Below, piece by piece: positions 16,206-20,779 of a DNA stretch of 21,392 nucleotides. The notes beneath the pieces were generated by a model that had not been told where the DNA came from, did not search any database, and was given only the letters and a program-made list of their open reading frames with translations. The DNA comes from a virus. Both the position numbers and the translations under genes were made by a program. Within the stretch, counting starts at the first letter, position 1. Each line of letters starts with the position of its first letter. The DNA is taken from positions 1 through 21,392 of IMG/VR virus record IMGVR_UViG_3300031952_000179; one strand, written 5' to 3'.

Positions 16206-17150
16206 TTAATTTGTATTTATTGGGTTTGATAATACTTGAGGAATGATTATTTCAGCTGCTGCTTTAGCTGCTTCCGTTGCTGGTACTTCAAATTCTTGGT
16301 CTGTCTTAACCATAGTACCATAATATATAGCATTATTAAGTAGCTGGAATGAGAATTTAATATTTGCTGGGCCGTTTCTATTCTTGGTAAATTCTAAATA
16401 AGTATTACCTGTACTACCTCTGCCTGTCTCAATTCTCATCTCTAAAAGAGCATCAGTCATATGTTTTAACCGGTTACTACCAACAAAATCTCCACCTTTA
16501 GTAACTTGCTGTATTAATAAAAATGTTGTGTAAAGATTTTCTTTATTTTCACCTTTATTATTTTTAGTAAATGTTTCAACTAACCAAGATTCTGCTCTTT
16601 TTCTATCCCAGTCATTATCATCCCTAACCCCATCTAATACTTCAGCAATACTATCAACTAGAATTAGATCCCAACCTATATCTAAAACTTGCTCAATTAC
16701 ATCTTTAGTATTATGACTAAGATAGTCACTAACAAACATTGTCTGTACTATTCCGAATTGTGGGAATCGTTGAGTGTATTTAAACATTTGTTTTCTACCC
16801 ATTTCACCACAAATAAATAAACATCGTCTATCACTTTTATTCTGAACAGATGCTAATAGGTCTAAGAGACTTGTTGTTTTACCTACTCCAGCGTCACCTA
16901 CACACATAATATTTGTTGCGCAAGGCACTCCACCTTCATAACTAACAAGTTCATCTAAAGGTAAACCACTTACCATTGTCTCCATCATACGAGGATCAAT
17001 ATCAAGCGTATTTAGTTTCTCTATACCTCCTGAGAAATCAATAATAGGAATACGATGTGGATAAAGTGGATTGTTTAGTTTGGGTGGTCGACCCCTTTGT
17101 CTTTTTTCTGGAATAGTTGGTTGTGTGGGCATCTCTTTTTCATCTATCAT
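16206..17150 (-). CDS. RadA/RecA-family ATPase with AT-hook
   Basis: A 314-aa protein from the start MIDEKEMPTQ; a longer form from 17201 would begin upstream of the promoter box at 17172 and is unlikely. An AT-hook (KRQRGRPPK, 16-24) precedes a RecA-type core with Walker A GDAGVGKTT (85-93), FICGEM near 112-117, and Walker B DLILVDS (161-167). The part LKHMTDALLEMR ... FTKNRNGPANIKF matches the RadA/Sms arrangement (LEHMVDTVLYF ... KNRFGP) more than classical RecA or DnaB. RadA-like ATPases drive branch migration and recombination-dependent replication. No zinc finger and no Lon-like C-terminal domain are present, unlike full RadA. A phage recombination/replication role is inferred. Confidence 0.7.
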   Translation of the reverse strand: MIDEKEMPTQPTIPEKRQRGRPPKLNNPLYPHRIPIIDFSGGIEKLNTLDIDPRMMETMVSGLPLDELVSYEGGVPCATNIMCVGDAGVGKTTSLLDLLASVQNKSDRRCLFICGEMGRKQMFKYTQRFPQFGIVQTMFVSDYLSHNTKDVIEQVLDIGWDLILVDSIAEVLDGVRDDNDWDRKRAESWLVETFTKNNKGENKENLYTTFLLIQQVTKGGDFVGSNRLKHMTDALLEMRIETGRGSTGNTYLEFTKNRNGPANIKFSFQLLNNAIYYGTMVKTDQEFEVPATEAAKAAAEIIIPQVLSNPINTN

Positions 17151-17171
17151 AACCTTTATTCTTATTTTTTC

Positions 17172-17183
17172 TAAATATAAGTA
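17172..17183 (-). promoter_or_regulatory. promoter-like box TACTTATATTTA
   Basis: 21 bp upstream of the chosen ATPase start. Confidence 0.6.
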
Positions 17184-17190
17184 AAATTTC

Positions 17191-17442
17191 TTAAGAGACA
17201 AAATTTACTTCTAATATTTCTTCATTTTCCATAGTTATTACACAGCCTTTAAAGTTAGGTAAATATCTTTTTATACCTTTCTCATCTTCATATATAAGAT
17301 CTATTCTTTTTTGTTTACTTAGAGGAATAATATATGGATAATTACCCTTAATATCTCTCCATCTCTGTTTATCTGTCATGGTTTCTTCTCTTATAGAAGC
17401 CCATAACAAATTCTTTCTTATCTTAGACAAGATAAATTTCAT
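17191..17442 (-). CDS. hypothetical protein
   Basis: An 83-aa basic protein. Met1 (MKFILSKIRKNLLW) or Met22 (MTDKQRWRDIKG) could be the start. Two short beta segments (RIDLIYEDEKG, GCVITMENEEILEV) near the end. Starts 17 bp after the tmRNA 3' end, so it could be transcribed with the tmRNA. Not recognised. Confidence 0.55.
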   Translation of the reverse strand: MKFILSKIRKNLLWASIREETMTDKQRWRDIKGNYPYIIPLSKQKRIDLIYEDEKGIKRYLPNFKGCVITMENEEILEVNFVS

Positions 17443-17459
17443 AATCTATTTTTCATTTG

Positions 17460-17845
17460 TGGAGGCGGGGGAAGTTGAATCCCCGTCTTACTTAATTAGC
17501 ACTAAAGTTCATTTACAAGCTTATTTGATTTATTCATAAACCAACAAAATAAAGGTTTCATATAAGTGTGAACCAAACCTTAAGAACATGGTCTTGGAAT
17601 TATTTTAGACGAGCTCCAACCTGTGACCCGTTAATGTTTTATAGATTTCTGTTCCTAGGATTACTATATACCCGAATGATTAAGCCGTTACAGCTTCATC
17701 AGCACCTACTAATGCCATAGCATCAGCAAATGTAAAAGTTGACTTTTCGTCAATTAATTGTTTGAATGTTTTATTAAAGAGTCGTATCCATCCTAACTCT
17801 GCTTGCACTCTAATACGCCTAAAGCAATCAATACCCGGCGCCCCC
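17460..17845 (-). ncRNA. ssrA: tmRNA
   Basis: A 386-nt tmRNA. The 5' GGGGGCG pairs with the 3' CGCCTCC over 7 bp with a wobble at position 3 (the G3-U mark for charging with alanine), followed by discriminator A; CCA is not encoded. The T arm is GGGGA TTCAACT TCCCC. The D-like region reads CCGGGTATTGAT. Helix 2 pairs TTGCTT with AAGTAA and continues as ATTAG with CTAAT. A hairpin TTGAC/GTCAA (17739-17753) ends 11 nt before GCT at 17727, matching the PK1-to-resume-codon spacing known from E. coli. From there 15 codons run to TAA at 17680-17682: ADAMALVGADEAVTA. The tag position is inferred; the tmRNA itself is well supported. It rescues stalled ribosomes with SmpB, presumably supplied by the host. 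Confidence 0.8.
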
Positions 17846-18113: not shown

Positions 18114-18590
18114 TCAGCGGCACAGTACGTCAGCCATAACAGATGCGTAAGGTCCTAACGATTTAACTCTACTCTCGAAACCTAAACTTGCAACCCATCC
18201 TGTAGCTGCTATTAGGATTTGATTACTTTGATATCTTGGATCTGGATTCAAGTCTAGGTCAATATATTTGACATGAACATTTCCTGTTTCCTTTAAGAAT
18301 AAAGCTACATCAACTGAATTCACTACTTCCTTCCATAATCTTTCTGATGTTGTCTTATATTTTGGTAATTTTTCTTTAGCATAAAGCACATGTCCACCAT
18401 GATTTCCATAATGAAATACTAATACAGTAGCAAACATTGACTGATTTCGGCTATTTTGACTATCTGTACCTACATAAATAGAAACATCTTTTTTAGTTGC
18501 TAAAATATTTTTAACATAATCTAATAAGTCAATTTCTTTATGATCTGATAATGTATGAAATGTTAACATTGTTTTATTATTTAAAATCAT
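18114..18590 (-). CDS. RNase H-like YkuK-family (DUF458) protein
   Basis: A 158-aa protein with SIYVGTDSQNSRNQSMFATVLVFH (Asp43 in GTDSQ), ERLWKEVVNSVDVA (Glu83) and KYIDLDLNPDPRYQSNQI (Asp111/Asp113). This set matches the ribonuclease H-like YkuK family, whose acidic residues on the RNase H fold suggest metal-dependent nuclease action; no member's substrate is certain to me. A start at Met8 is also possible. Its 14-bp overlap with the cyclic-phosphate receiver gene indicates co-expression. Confidence 0.7.
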   Translation of the reverse strand: MILNNKTMLTFHTLSDHKEIDLLDYVKNILATKKDVSIYVGTDSQNSRNQSMFATVLVFHYGNHGGHVLYAKEKLPKYKTTSERLWKEVVNSVDVALFLKETGNVHVKYIDLDLNPDPRYQSNQILIAATGWVASLGFESRVKSLGPYASVMADVLCR

Positions 18591-18996
18591 TTACATATTG
18601 GATAGGATAAAATGTTCTAATACAATTTTCTTCTTGCCCACAATATCTTTGAAACTGTTTTACTATTGCCTGTATATTTTCACTACCTAACTCATTTGCT
18701 GAATGAACTGTTACTTCTTTTAATGGTTTATTTTTTCTAATACAATAATTTATAAGGTATTCTACACATTCTCTTCCTGTCTCTATCTTAAAACTATCAT
18801 AGTCAATAAATTTTTCTCCATTGTATTGATGAAGAAAATAATCTTTCATATGTTCCTCTGCTAGATCATGATCAAAAGATACAAGATCAGGTACCCCAAA
18901 TTCTTCTATAGCAGTAACAAACTCTTTATAGTTTCTTACTACTGTCCAACCTTCATCAAAAGGTGTTCTAACATCGTCAAGATATAATCTTATCAT
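18577..18996 (-). CDS. cyclic-phosphate processing receiver-domain protein
   Basis: A 139-aa protein from MIRLYLDDVRTPFDEGW. The acidic pair Asp7-Asp8 and the SFDHDL motif (Asp42, Asp44) are typical of the divergent receiver-like family described as cyclic-phosphate processing receiver domain, not of a two-component response regulator. The family has been predicted to act on cyclic-phosphate-containing molecules such as RNA 2',3'-cyclic phosphate ends; that is prediction. An in-frame extension to 19032 would overlap tRNA-Arg, so the ATG at 18996, 4 bp after the tRNA, is chosen. Confidence 0.7.
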   Translation of the reverse strand: MIRLYLDDVRTPFDEGWTVVRNYKEFVTAIEEFGVPDLVSFDHDLAEEHMKDYFLHQYNGEKFIDYDSFKIETGRECVEYLINYCIRKNKPLKEVTVHSANELGSENIQAIVKQFQRYCGQEENCIRTFYPIQYVNDFK

Positions 18997-19000
18997 TTTG

Positions 19001-19073
19001 TGCCCTCTATGAGATTCGAACTCATAAAACACCCTTAGAAGGGGCGTGGTTTATCCAGTTAGCCTAAGTGGGC
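19001..19073 (-). tRNA. tRNA-Arg (TCT)
   Basis: Acceptor GCCCACT / AGAGGGC (one A-A mismatch), anticodon loop CTTCTAA reads AGA, T-loop TTCGAAT, discriminator A. AGA is the favoured Arg codon in AT-rich genomes. Last tRNA of the array, 4 bp before a protein start. Confidence 0.85.
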
Positions 19074-19078
19074 AATGG

Positions 19079-19168
19079 CGGAAGAAGCGAGACTCGAACT
19101 CACACGCCAACTTTTCGTCGACGAACAGTTTAGCAAACTGCGGCAGTACCAATTATGCTTATTCTTCC
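19079..19168 (-). tRNA. tRNA-Ser (GCT)
   Basis: Acceptor GGAAGAA / TTCTTCC, anticodon loop TTGCTAA, long variable arm as expected for Ser, discriminator G. Own promoter box 21 bp upstream. Confidence 0.9.
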
Positions 19169-19189
19169 TTTTTTTTATTTCTCTTATTA

Positions 19190-19201
19190 TAAATATAAGT
19201 A
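19190..19201 (-). promoter_or_regulatory. promoter-like box inside tRNA array
   Basis: TACTTATATTTA between tRNA-Cys and tRNA-Ser(GCT); the only gap (60 bp) in this part of the array, so Ser(GCT) and Arg(TCT) plus the protein genes behind could be a separate transcript. Confidence 0.6.
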
Positions 19202-19228
19202 AAAATTTTTATAAAACCTAACAAATAG

Positions 19229-19298
19229 AAGTAGGGGTGAGTAACAATCTCACTCCATAAGTTTTGCAGACCTATTAGCCGTCTCGACTGACCCTACT
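19229..19298 (-). tRNA. tRNA-Cys (GCA), unusual T-loop
   Basis: Acceptor AGTAGGG / CCCTACT perfect; anticodon loop CTGCAAA; discriminator T, as required for Cys. The D loop is short and lacks GG, and the T-loop is ATTGTTA in place of TTCRANN. Only 70 nt. Confidence 0.75.
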
Positions 19299-19302
19299 AT
19301 AG

Positions 19303-19374
19303 TGCATTATAGAGAACTCGAATCCCTATTCTCCGGTTCGTAGCCGAAAGTCCTATCCATTGAACGAATAATGC
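19303..19374 (-). tRNA. tRNA-Arg (ACG)
   Basis: Acceptor GCATTAT / ATAATGC perfect, anticodon loop CTACGAA, T-loop TTCGAGT, discriminator A. A34 would need deamination to inosine by host TadA to read CGN. Confidence 0.9.
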
Positions 19375-19379
19375 TTATG

Positions 19380-19452
19380 TACCCATAGCGAGATTCGAAC
19401 TCGCACACTACGCTTCTAAGGCGCATACGACTACCAGTTACGTCATACGGGT
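19380..19452 (-). tRNA. tRNA-Leu (TAG anticodon), short variable loop
   Basis: Acceptor ACCCGTA / TATGGGT, anticodon stem TGCGC / GCGTA with loop CTTAGAA, T-loop TTCGAAT, discriminator A. Reads CUA. Leu tRNAs of bacteria normally have a long variable arm; here it is only 4-5 nt. Leu is assigned by anticodon alone. Confidence 0.75.
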
Positions 19453-19463
19453 ATTTAATGTTG

Positions 19464-19537
19464 TATTCCTGAAGGGAGTCGAACCCTCACTGTATGGGTC
19501 TTAAGCCCATTGTGACTACCAGTTGCACCACAGGAAT
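19464..19537 (-). tRNA. tRNA-Leu (TAA anticodon), short variable loop
   Basis: Acceptor ATTCCTG / CAGGAAT perfect, anticodon stem ATGGG / CCCAT with loop CTTAAGA, variable loop ACAGT, T-loop TTCGACT, discriminator A. Reads UUA, a very common codon here. The class I variable loop is unexpected for Leu. Confidence 0.8.
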
Positions 19538-19547
19538 ATATATGTTG

Positions 19548-19621
19548 GGTGTCTAAGTGGATTCGAACCTCCATCTCCCCAGTTCACAGCCGGGAGCTTT
19601 AACCAGTTAAGCTATAGACAC
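19548..19621 (-). tRNA. tRNA-His (GTG)
   Basis: Acceptor GTGTCTA / TAGACAC, anticodon loop CTGTGAA, discriminator C as in bacterial His tRNA. The base before position 1 is T, not the usual encoded G-1. Confidence 0.85.
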
Positions 19622-19623
19622 AG

Positions 19624-19714
19624 CGGAAGTAGCAAGAATTCAACTTGCACAACAGGATTGGTTACCGTCCTAGGCGTTTTCAAGACGCTGTACCTCTGTC
19701 CATTGGGTACTTCC
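19624..19714 (-). tRNA. tRNA-Ser (TGA)
   Basis: Acceptor GGAAGTA / TACTTCC, anticodon loop CTTGAAA, long variable arm, T-loop TTGAATT, discriminator G. Confidence 0.9.
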
Positions 19715-19723
19715 ATATTATTG

Positions 19724-19796
19724 CACGAGTAGAAAGCAACGATCTCTCAACCTTTGGGTTTGGAATCCAACGCTCTACCAATTGAGCTATACTCGC
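19724..19796 (-). tRNA. tRNA-Trp (CCA), unusual T-loop
   Basis: Acceptor GCGAGTA / TACTCGT (first pair G-T), D arm GCTC / GAGC, anticodon loop TTCCAAA, discriminator G as expected. T-loop ATCGTTG has A54/T58 exchanged relative to the standard T54/A58. Confidence 0.8.
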
Positions 19797-19801
19797 ATTT
19801 G

Positions 19802-19871
19802 TGGGATAGGTAGAACTCGAATCTACTAGCAGTTGATTTACAGTCAAGGCTTCCTACCCTGGGTCTATCCC
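19802..19871 (-). tRNA. tRNA-Tyr (GTA), short variable loop
   Basis: Acceptor GGGATAG / CTATCCC perfect, anticodon loop CTGTAAA, T-loop TTCGAGT, discriminator A. The variable loop is 5 nt where bacterial Tyr tRNA has a long arm, and the D arm is reduced. 70 nt in all. Confidence 0.75.
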
Positions 19872-19876
19872 TATTG

Positions 19877-19949
19877 TACTCTAAATCAGACTCGAACTGA
19901 TAATAATTGGATGTAAACCAACCGTGATTAGCCATTTCACTATTAGAGC
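19877..19949 (-). tRNA. tRNA-Val (TAC)
   Basis: Acceptor GCTCTAA / TTAGAGT, anticodon loop TTTACAT, T-loop TTCGAGT, discriminator A. Confidence 0.85.
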
Positions 19950-19956
19950 TAATTAG

Positions 19957-20029
19957 TACTCATGGTTGGACTTGAACCAACATCCTTGGTGGTATAAGCA
20001 CCCTGCTCTCACATTGGAGCTACATGAGC
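19957..20029 (-). tRNA. tRNA-Ile (TAT)
   Basis: Acceptor GCTCATG / CATGAGT, anticodon loop CTTATAC, T-loop TTCAAGT, discriminator A. Reads AUA directly; most bacteria use a lysidine-modified CAT tRNA for that codon. Confidence 0.8.
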
Positions 20030-20037
20030 ATTTTTGG

Positions 20038-20110
20038 TACTGATAGAAGAACTTGAATCTTCAATCTCTCGCTTATCAGGCGAGTGCTTTAACCATTTAG
20101 CTATATCAGT
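20038..20110 (-). tRNA. tRNA-Ile (GAT)
   Basis: Acceptor ACTGATA / TATCAGT perfect, anticodon loop CTGATAA, T-loop TTCAAGT, discriminator A. Confidence 0.9.
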
Positions 20111-20117
20111 ATTTATG

Positions 20118-20190
20118 TGGACCATATCAGGAACGATCTGATATCTGATGGTTGCAAACCACCTGTTCTAGCCAATTGAACTAACAGCCC
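20118..20190 (-). tRNA. tRNA-Ala (TGC), unusual T-loop
   Basis: Acceptor GGGCTGT / ATGGTCC includes the G3-U70 pair that marks Ala; anticodon loop TTTGCAA. T-loop ATCGTTC has A54/T58 in place of T54/A58. Discriminator A. Confidence 0.8.
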
Positions 20191-20193
20191 AAG

Positions 20194-20245
20194 TACTTCT
20201 AATCAGATTTGAACTGATAGTCGACGGTTAAGAGCCGCCTGATGG
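20194..20245 (-). pseudogene. truncated tRNA-Lys (CTT)
   Basis: The anticodon arm (GGCGG CTCTTAA CCGTC), T arm (ATCAG TTCAAAT CTGAT) and 3' acceptor strand TAGAAGT are intact, but no matching 5' acceptor strand or D arm exists before tRNA-Gln begins. The adjoining 11-mer GCAACCATCAG also occurs in tRNA-Ala, suggesting loss by recombination between tRNAs. Confidence 0.65.
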
Positions 20246-20318
20246 TTGCCCCTCCTGGATTCGAACCAGAAGTCTTTTGATTCAAAATCAAACGTGTTGC
20301 CAATTCCACTAAGGGGCA
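20246..20318 (-). tRNA. tRNA-Gln (TTG)
   Basis: Acceptor TGCCCCT / AGGGGCA with the U1-A72 pair typical of Gln, anticodon loop TTTTGAA, T-loop TTCGAAT, discriminator A. Confidence 0.9.
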
Positions 20319-20325
20319 ATTTAAG

Positions 20326-20398
20326 TACCGATACAGAAACTCGAATTCTGGATTCGTCCTTATGAGAGACGCGTGATAGCCTACTTCACCATATCGGC
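20326..20398 (-). tRNA. tRNA-Met or Ile2 (CAT)
   Basis: Acceptor GCCGATA / TATCGGT, anticodon loop CTCATAA, T-loop TTCGAGT, discriminator A. Likely elongator Met, since AUA already has a TAT tRNA. Confidence 0.8.
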
Positions 20399-20404
20399 AT
20401 TTAG

Positions 20405-20481
20405 AAGCGAGGGTCAGATTCGAACTGACATTATGAAAGGCTTATGAGACCTACGCAGGAACCATTCCTGTCCACCTCGCG
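20405..20481 (-). tRNA. tRNA-fMet-like (CAT)
   Basis: The 5' end CGCGAGGTGGA and the unpaired first position (C1 against U72) recall bacterial initiator tRNA, which has a 1-72 mismatch. Anticodon loop CTCATAA, T-loop TTCGAAT. The D arm (CAGG / CCTG) is shifted, the anticodon stem lacks three G-C pairs, and the expected discriminator A is T. Confidence 0.6.
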
Positions 20482-20489
20482 ATGTATTA

Positions 20490-20562
20490 GCGAAACAAAA
20501 AGATTCGAACTTTTACTCCCGCGCTTTTAGAGCGCAGTGTGCTACCGTTACACCATATTTCT
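20490..20562 (-). tRNA. tRNA of uncertain identity (CTA suppressor-like or TAA)
   Basis: D arm GTGT / GCAC and T arm AAAAG TTCGAAT CTTTT are normal. Acceptor AGAAATA / TGTTTCG has a mismatched first pair and discriminator C. The anticodon arm can be read two ways: best pairing (TGCGC / GCGCG) gives loop TCTAAAA with anticodon TAA but C at invariant position 33, whereas loop CTCTAAA keeps T33 and gives anticodon CTA, which reads UAG, at the cost of stem mismatches. Confidence 0.55.
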
Positions 20563-20617
20563 GTCCAAGATTATAAGTTTTGGACTCAAGACAAAGTTAA
20601 TTATTCTCTATCTTTAG

Positions 20618-20691
20618 AGCAGGTACCCAGATTTAAACTGAGACCATCGCATTGGAAGTGCGAGATGCTAATCGTTAAACACTATACCTGC
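20618..20691 (-). tRNA. tRNA-Gly (TCC)
   Basis: Acceptor GCAGGTA / TACCTGC perfect, anticodon stem TCGCA / TGCGA with loop CTTCCAA, T-loop TTTAAAT, discriminator T as expected for Gly. Confidence 0.85.
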
Positions 20692-20703
20692 TTATTTATT
20701 TTG

Positions 20704-20779
20704 TACTGCAGACGAGATTCGAACTCGCAATGCTCGACCTTGAAAGGGTGAGGACTTAATCCAGTTTGTCAACTGCAGC
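20704..20779 (-). tRNA. tRNA-Glu (TTC)
   Basis: Acceptor GCTGCAG / CTGCAGT, anticodon loop CTTTCAA, T-loop TTCGAAT, discriminator A. First tRNA of the array. Its 5' 24 nt also encode the last codons and stop of the gp32-like fragment. Confidence 0.85.

Follow-up and report, generated by a model that had tools for sequence, protein, structure and literature searches.

A predicted one-piece tmRNA in a virus contig and its apparently phage-only family of long tags

Our analysis of an IMG/VR virus record of 21,392 bases (the whole stretch analysed, hereafter the window) revealed a tmRNA gene with a tag of 23 amino acids, DEKSTFTFADAMALVGADEAVTA, whose frame is conserved in related phages. We consider it likely, judging from the sequence comparisons below, that the gene encodes a working one-piece tmRNA of a tailed, probably Bacteroidota phage and that it is a member of a widespread, phage-only family with long tags. 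This family bears on the question of why phages carry tmRNA. Its tags, which are two to three times as long as those of the likely hosts and conserved across at least 118 environmental phage sequences, would point to selection on the content of the tag and not just on ribosome release, and the family supplies a concrete peptide and RNA element.

Identification of the tmRNA gene

A search with the Rfam tmRNA model (RF00023; curated cut-off, or gathering score, 47 bits) gave a single match in the window, from 17845 to 17457 on the minus strand, with 82.0 bits and an E-value of 9.8e-31 over the full model (1-374). The preliminary description of this DNA had predicted such a strong match at 17460-17845. 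The E-value, together with the homologous tmRNAs in related phages, excludes a match by chance. The main parts of the gene are as follows.

17460..17845, minus strand: phage tmRNA gene (ssrA), G1 to A73, 386 nt
17839..17845, minus strand: 5' strand of the acceptor stem, GGGGGCG, whose G3 belongs to the alanine identity pair G3-U70
17461..17467, minus strand: 3' strand of the acceptor stem, CGCCUCC (with U70), next to the discriminator A73 at 17460
17468..17484, minus strand: T arm GGGGA-UUCAACU-UCCCC
17764..17800, minus strand: pseudoknot 1 (PK1; stem 1 AGAGUU/GACUCU, stem 2 GGAUG/CAUUC)

The acceptor stem (7/7 pairs, including G3-U70), A73 and the T-stem (5/5 pairs) of the tRNA-like domain (TLD) fit a tmRNA, as had been described, and all 78 unique full-length family members among the matches listed have G3-U70. 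The CCA end is not encoded, the bases after A73 being CAA, and the region of PK2-PK4 aligned poorly with the Rfam model, with many non-canonical pairs. ARAGORN called 16 tRNAs in the window and missed the tmRNA, as it missed about 40% of the family loci scanned, showing that phage tmRNAs are under-annotated. The 16 tRNA genes are clustered upstream of the tmRNA at 19000-20779 on the minus strand, and an RNase H-like protein (PF04308) and a cREC_REC protein (PF20274) are encoded between the tmRNA and this cluster (18114-19032).

Resume codon and reading frame of the tag

17752..17763, minus strand: 12-nt spacer AAACAAUUAAUU from PK1 to the resume codon; U(-5) is base 17756 and A(-4) base 17755
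17680..17751, minus strand: tag reading frame from the resume codon GAC to the stop UAA, with homologous frames in 119 other rows of the family table described below

The preliminary description had placed the resume codon at GCT (17727-17725), giving a tag of 15 amino acids, and had judged its spacing to fit a tmRNA. Homology, the distance from PK1 and the UA at -5/-4 instead place it at GAC (17751-17749), eight codons (24 nt) upstream, so that the tag has 23 amino acids. In Escherichia coli, the resume codon lies 12 nt after PK1, and A86 is essential (PMC2481249). We rejected GCT, which lies 36 nt and not 12 nt after PK1 and has C and not U at -5, and from which a start would drop residues common to the relatives; the residues DEKSTF of the window tag also occur in independent relatives. 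The long conserved module ahead of the degron, the truly distinctive feature of the tag, had been overlooked because the resume codon was put inside it. The C-terminus had been read correctly, the frame ending in ...DEAVTA and a stop, and the basic proposal of a phage-encoded tmRNA with an unusual tag was right. The same description had allowed for a resume codon elsewhere that would give a normal ALAA-type tag: the codon does lie elsewhere, but in the same frame, and the VTA end stays.

In many relatives, ARAGORN, which has no knowledge of the tag family, put the start of the tag in the column of the window's GAC. Of the 94 unique upstream regions of family members among the matches listed, 86 contained an equivalent PK1 in a pseudoknot search, compared with 7 of 94 shuffled ones; in 85 of the family regions, PK1 lay 8-13 nt ahead of the resume codon. 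The script that listed the resume codons demanded G at +1 and A at -4, and the universal presence of these two residues (A at -4 in 120/120 rows) is therefore no independent evidence. A at -3, which the script did not demand, was found in all 120 rows among the matches listed; the independent support for the predicted GAC resume codon is this residue, the spacing and the homology.

A family of long tags in phages

To recruit relatives of the window independently of the tag, we used a different, unrelated gene (ATPase, 16206-17201) and then applied the tmRNA model to their whole records. In eight of these phage contigs, the model matched a tmRNA over its full length, with seven scores over the curated cut-off and one under it, and seven of the eight have the tag frame and module of the window. 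The tags of the relatives are DEKSTFTYEDALAFVSADLAVAA, DNVELSTWTFEDMMSFVGADEYAVAA, DNELSTMTFDDLMSFVGADYALAA, DEMSTMTFDDLVAFVGAEEYAYAA, ANVELSTWTIEDALAFVDGEFALAA, AVELSTMTFEDVMSFVGADYAVAA and AVELSTMTFEDAMSFVGADLAVAA. In the related phage L086, whose tmRNA scores below the Rfam cut-off, the tag module has been swapped or lost, and an unrelated long frame, DNKIARQEEGASIINMAFANVAMAA, is present.

We defined the family as tmRNAs whose tag contains the module T-[FYI]-x-D-x(3)-[FL]-V-x-[AG]-[DE], which the window tag matches. A scan of IMG/VR with a degenerate DNA pattern gave at least 119 stretches, at least 118 of which are short frames ending in a stop, amounting to at least 118 further phage tmRNAs with tags of 23-26 amino acids after the resume signal. 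A complete acceptor stem was detectable in most of these frames. Together with the window and one extra locus, the pattern matches make up a family table of 120 partly redundant rows, in which the matches listed comprise 85 unique core sequences and 65 unique tags with the consensus (A/D)xELSxMTFEDAMAFVGADYAVAA.

The same pattern had seven matches in 84,980 bacterial and archaeal species genomes, all of them in ordinary coding regions with no tmRNA; at the sensitivity of the pattern, the family tag is absent from prokaryote genomes. Nor was the family found among the INPHARED phages, which gave no match to the window tmRNA (blastn) or to two of the tags (tblastn). A long tag by itself is not new, since tags of 8-35 amino acids are already known (PMC8012679). 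We found no description of the conserved phage-only module in the largely open-access literature searched, and the window tmRNA apparently belongs to a large, previously undescribed, phage-only tmRNA family. A search for a conserved neighbour gene as a possible adaptor yielded none present at more than 39 of about 119 loci among the matches listed, where the commonest neighbour was a small lipoprotein-like ORF.

Selection and RNA hairpins in the tag frame

In the family core, the mean entropy at codon positions 1, 2 and 3 was 0.37, 0.21 and 1.07 bits among the matches listed. The pN/pS ratio of 0.20 in this core is biased by the search pattern, which dictates many of the first and second codon positions of the core; the ratio was 0.38 in codons outside the search pattern (among the matches listed) and 0.29 in the eight members that the structure model had identified by itself. 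The same DNA read in other frames gave ratios above 1.8. Two hairpins were also recognized in the tag frame of the window.

17739..17753, minus strand: hairpin 1, UUGAC-GAAAA-GUCAA, containing the resume codon, with covarying equivalents in relatives
17703..17732, minus strand: hairpin 2, 13 bp, closed by the loop UAUG (folding and covariation)

For hairpin 2, the 83-nt region of the window folds at -27.7 kcal/mol (z -4.6), and none of 200 shuffled sequences was as stable. For the first-codon hairpin, GUAGA-AUUA-UCUAC accompanies the peptide VELST and GAAGA-AUUA-UCUUC the peptide EELSS, while the DEKST class, which includes the window, has UGAC...GUCA. Among the matches listed, the pair -17/-6 of this hairpin is UA in 33, AU in 16 and mismatched in 3 sequences; in the core hairpin, GAUGC/GCAUU (32) alternates with GACGC/GCGUU (4); and the Ser class uses a second register, GAAGAC/GUCUUU, fully paired in 36 of 40. 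The mean stem length was 4.79, compared with 3.86 (sd 0.10) in synonymous-codon shuffles, and the mean stem energy was -3.94 compared with -2.32 (sd 0.14) kcal/mol, both differences being inflated by related sequences. Whole-region z-scores from dinucleotide shuffles gave no distinction between the family and host tmRNAs (mean -1.3 vs -1.5), and our argument for the hairpins therefore rests on the covariation and the synonymous-codon shuffles.

Part of the amino acid conservation in the tag may serve these hairpins. A module driven by RNA structure only, in which the amino acids have no role, would explain why pairs are kept through synonymous or double changes, as in GUAGA/UCUAC vs GAAGA/UCUUC and GAUGC/GCAUU vs GACGC/GCGUU. 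We nevertheless regard it as unlikely: the invariant T, D and V and the near-invariant F hold while third bases vary, as the low entropies at first and second positions indicate, and nearly the same peptide is served by two different hairpin registers. Judged from these substitution patterns, the module is constrained both by amino acid conservation (pN/pS about 0.2-0.4) and by covarying hairpins.

The VTA end of the window tag

17686..17688, minus strand: ACG (Thr) codon that makes the VTA end; Ala in 82 of 85 unique family cores among the matches listed

The window tag ends in VTA and not in the two alanines of the canonical ssrA degron (LAA or VAA type), and the preliminary description had proposed that products might be marked differently, or not for degradation. 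Among the matches listed, 116 of the 120 rows end in AA, like bacterial degrons (VAA 74, LAA 29, IAA 8, YAA 3, MAA 1 and TAA 1), and the other ends are VSA (2), VHA (1) and VTA (1), the last being the window alone. The end of the window frame, GTA-ACG-GCT-TAA, differs from GTA-GCG-GCT-TAA of the relative L083 by one transition (G-to-A). In view of the prevailing AA ends and this single transition, the case for a change of product fate is weak, and we regard VTA as a variant of a degradation tag, either lineage-specific or erroneous. The idea that products are not marked for degradation is likewise unsupported, VTA being one transition from the usual end; the VTA end would probably weaken degradation or leave it intact rather than abolish it.

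It seems quite unlikely that the VTA end is itself functional, releasing ribosomes while marking proteins against degradation by host ClpXP or for another protease. The VTA, VSA and VHA ends do indicate that the penultimate residue can change, and unusual ends without AA are known from Cellulophaga phage Calle (...AVGV), the crAss-like phage cr50_1 (GNNFVTDYTAIGA, ending AIGA) and Bacillus phage G (AKLNITNNELQVA, ending LQVA). However, VTA is the sole case in the family among the matches listed, the terminal Ala and a hydrophobic residue before the Thr are retained, and the closest relative by tmRNA sequence among the matches listed (L241, about 0.7 identity) has a tag ending in LALAA. The exact end VGADEAVTA-stop had no match in IMG/VR, and a scan for further tags ending in [ST]A recovered just the known VSA pair and one chance match, L259.

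A single base in one metagenomic contig could also be a meaningless change, due to faulty sequencing or assembly or to incipient decay, and the usual Phe and Tyr are also missing from the window tag (ALV, DEAV). This explanation is quite improbable as well, because the TLD and PK1 are intact, as are the resume signal and the stop, and several relatives have lower model scores. The odd residues of the window, Ala for Glu and Leu for Phe, speak against random decay too: they fall in the two arms of hairpin 2 and make it longer.

Host and predicted mode of action

None of the 37 window genes (0/37) has a Shine-Dalgarno motif, and the upstream regions are A-rich. Both features are typical of Bacteroidota, and the missing Shine-Dalgarno sites suggest that the host of the window phage is probably a member of this phylum. 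A gene of the related contig G039 has 30% identity to Flavobacterium phage immuto and 32% to a Microcystis phage. About 30 tmRNAs sampled from the phylum to which a Bacteroidales genome belongs had tags of 9-10 amino acids, of the GENNYALAA or ANDYSYAMAA type, so that the window tag, with 23, falls outside the host type. The one-piece tmRNA of Bacteroidota (RF00023) shares with the phage family G3-U70 and A73, PK1, the UA signal before the resume codon and a YALAA/YAMAA degron, whereas the tags of the phage family have 23-26 amino acids and add the ELSxMTFEDAMAFVGAD module, with hairpins in the frame. Given the short tags of Bacteroidota, those of the phages resemble a host-type end preceded by an extra module.

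From these features we infer the following course. After processing, the phage tmRNA would be charged with alanine by host AlaRS through G3-U70, bind host SmpB and enter stalled ribosomes during infection; the tmRNA of mycobacteriophage Wildcat, its most highly expressed lytic gene (PMC7474061), is a precedent for use in infection. Translation would resume at GAC, adding (A)DEKSTFTFADAMALVGADEAVTA, and tagged products would most likely be degraded by the host Clp system, since the family C-terminus is the usual host-type degron (YAVAA/YALAA). The module of about 14 residues before the degron would most likely tune tag recognition or ribosome engagement, and selection on protein and RNA together would keep it. 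In the family as a whole, the tag resembles an ordinary degradation tag to which a conserved module has been added. It is possible, but doubtful, that the conserved 23-26-residue tag replaces the short host tag in a large phage group, its N-terminal module acting as a second signal, addressed to an adaptor, protease or other factor of host or phage, and leaving the fate of rescued proteins to the phage, with the hairpins controlling resumption and VTA shifting the fate further.

Of 50 related contigs, 2 encode SmpB; its absence from the others is weak evidence, since most contigs are probably fragments, the window itself being a 21-kb fragment. Proteins with the Clp protease fold (PF00574, L262-L271), which might be a phage partner or a head protease, occur in 10 of 50 family contigs.

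Other phage tmRNAs

Like the window, mycobacteriophages (the Bxz1 group and Wildcat) and Bacillus phage G carry tmRNAs (PMC4131195), although the phage G tag differs from that of the window. TLD-only phage tmRNAs, such as that of mycobacteriophage DS6A, have been discussed as inhibitors (PMC4131195), and a TLD-only copy also occurs in the huge phage LR756508. That the family tmRNA is such a decoy, titrating SmpB or host tmRNA function without tagging, is nonetheless highly improbable, as the tag frame, resume signal and stop, needless for a decoy, are conserved across the family.

Cellulophaga phages Calle and phi38:1, Chryseobacterium phage MA9V-3 and crAss-like phages are known or thought to be phages of Bacteroidota and have tmRNAs, several with long tags, but the tag sequences are unrelated to the family and some end in VGV or IGA. 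ARAGORN calls the crAss-like and MA9V-3 tmRNAs permuted. For Calle and phi38:1 (L272, L276), it gives the tag AQIEANMEAVNAILNLEVAVGV; the start may be earlier, at GGA (GNNTNAVNAQIEA..., about 30 amino acids), with the end VGV. The phi38:1 tmRNA is unannotated.

Huge phages likewise encode tmRNA and sometimes SmpB too, in a report that describes no tag sequences (PMC7162821). LR756508 differs from the window in having a frame of about 36 amino acids that ends in PAAV: its full tmRNA (L298, LR756508.1:92434-92880) reads GVNNADYESAGFTAEDFAQMDGESLYHGSERKPAAV after CUAUAACU, ending in AAV, and the different tag given by ARAGORN is unlikely. The TLD-only copy in this 484-kb phage (L301, LR756508.1:414804-414915) is a mini-tmRNA of 112 nt that resembles the TLD-only gene of DS6A.
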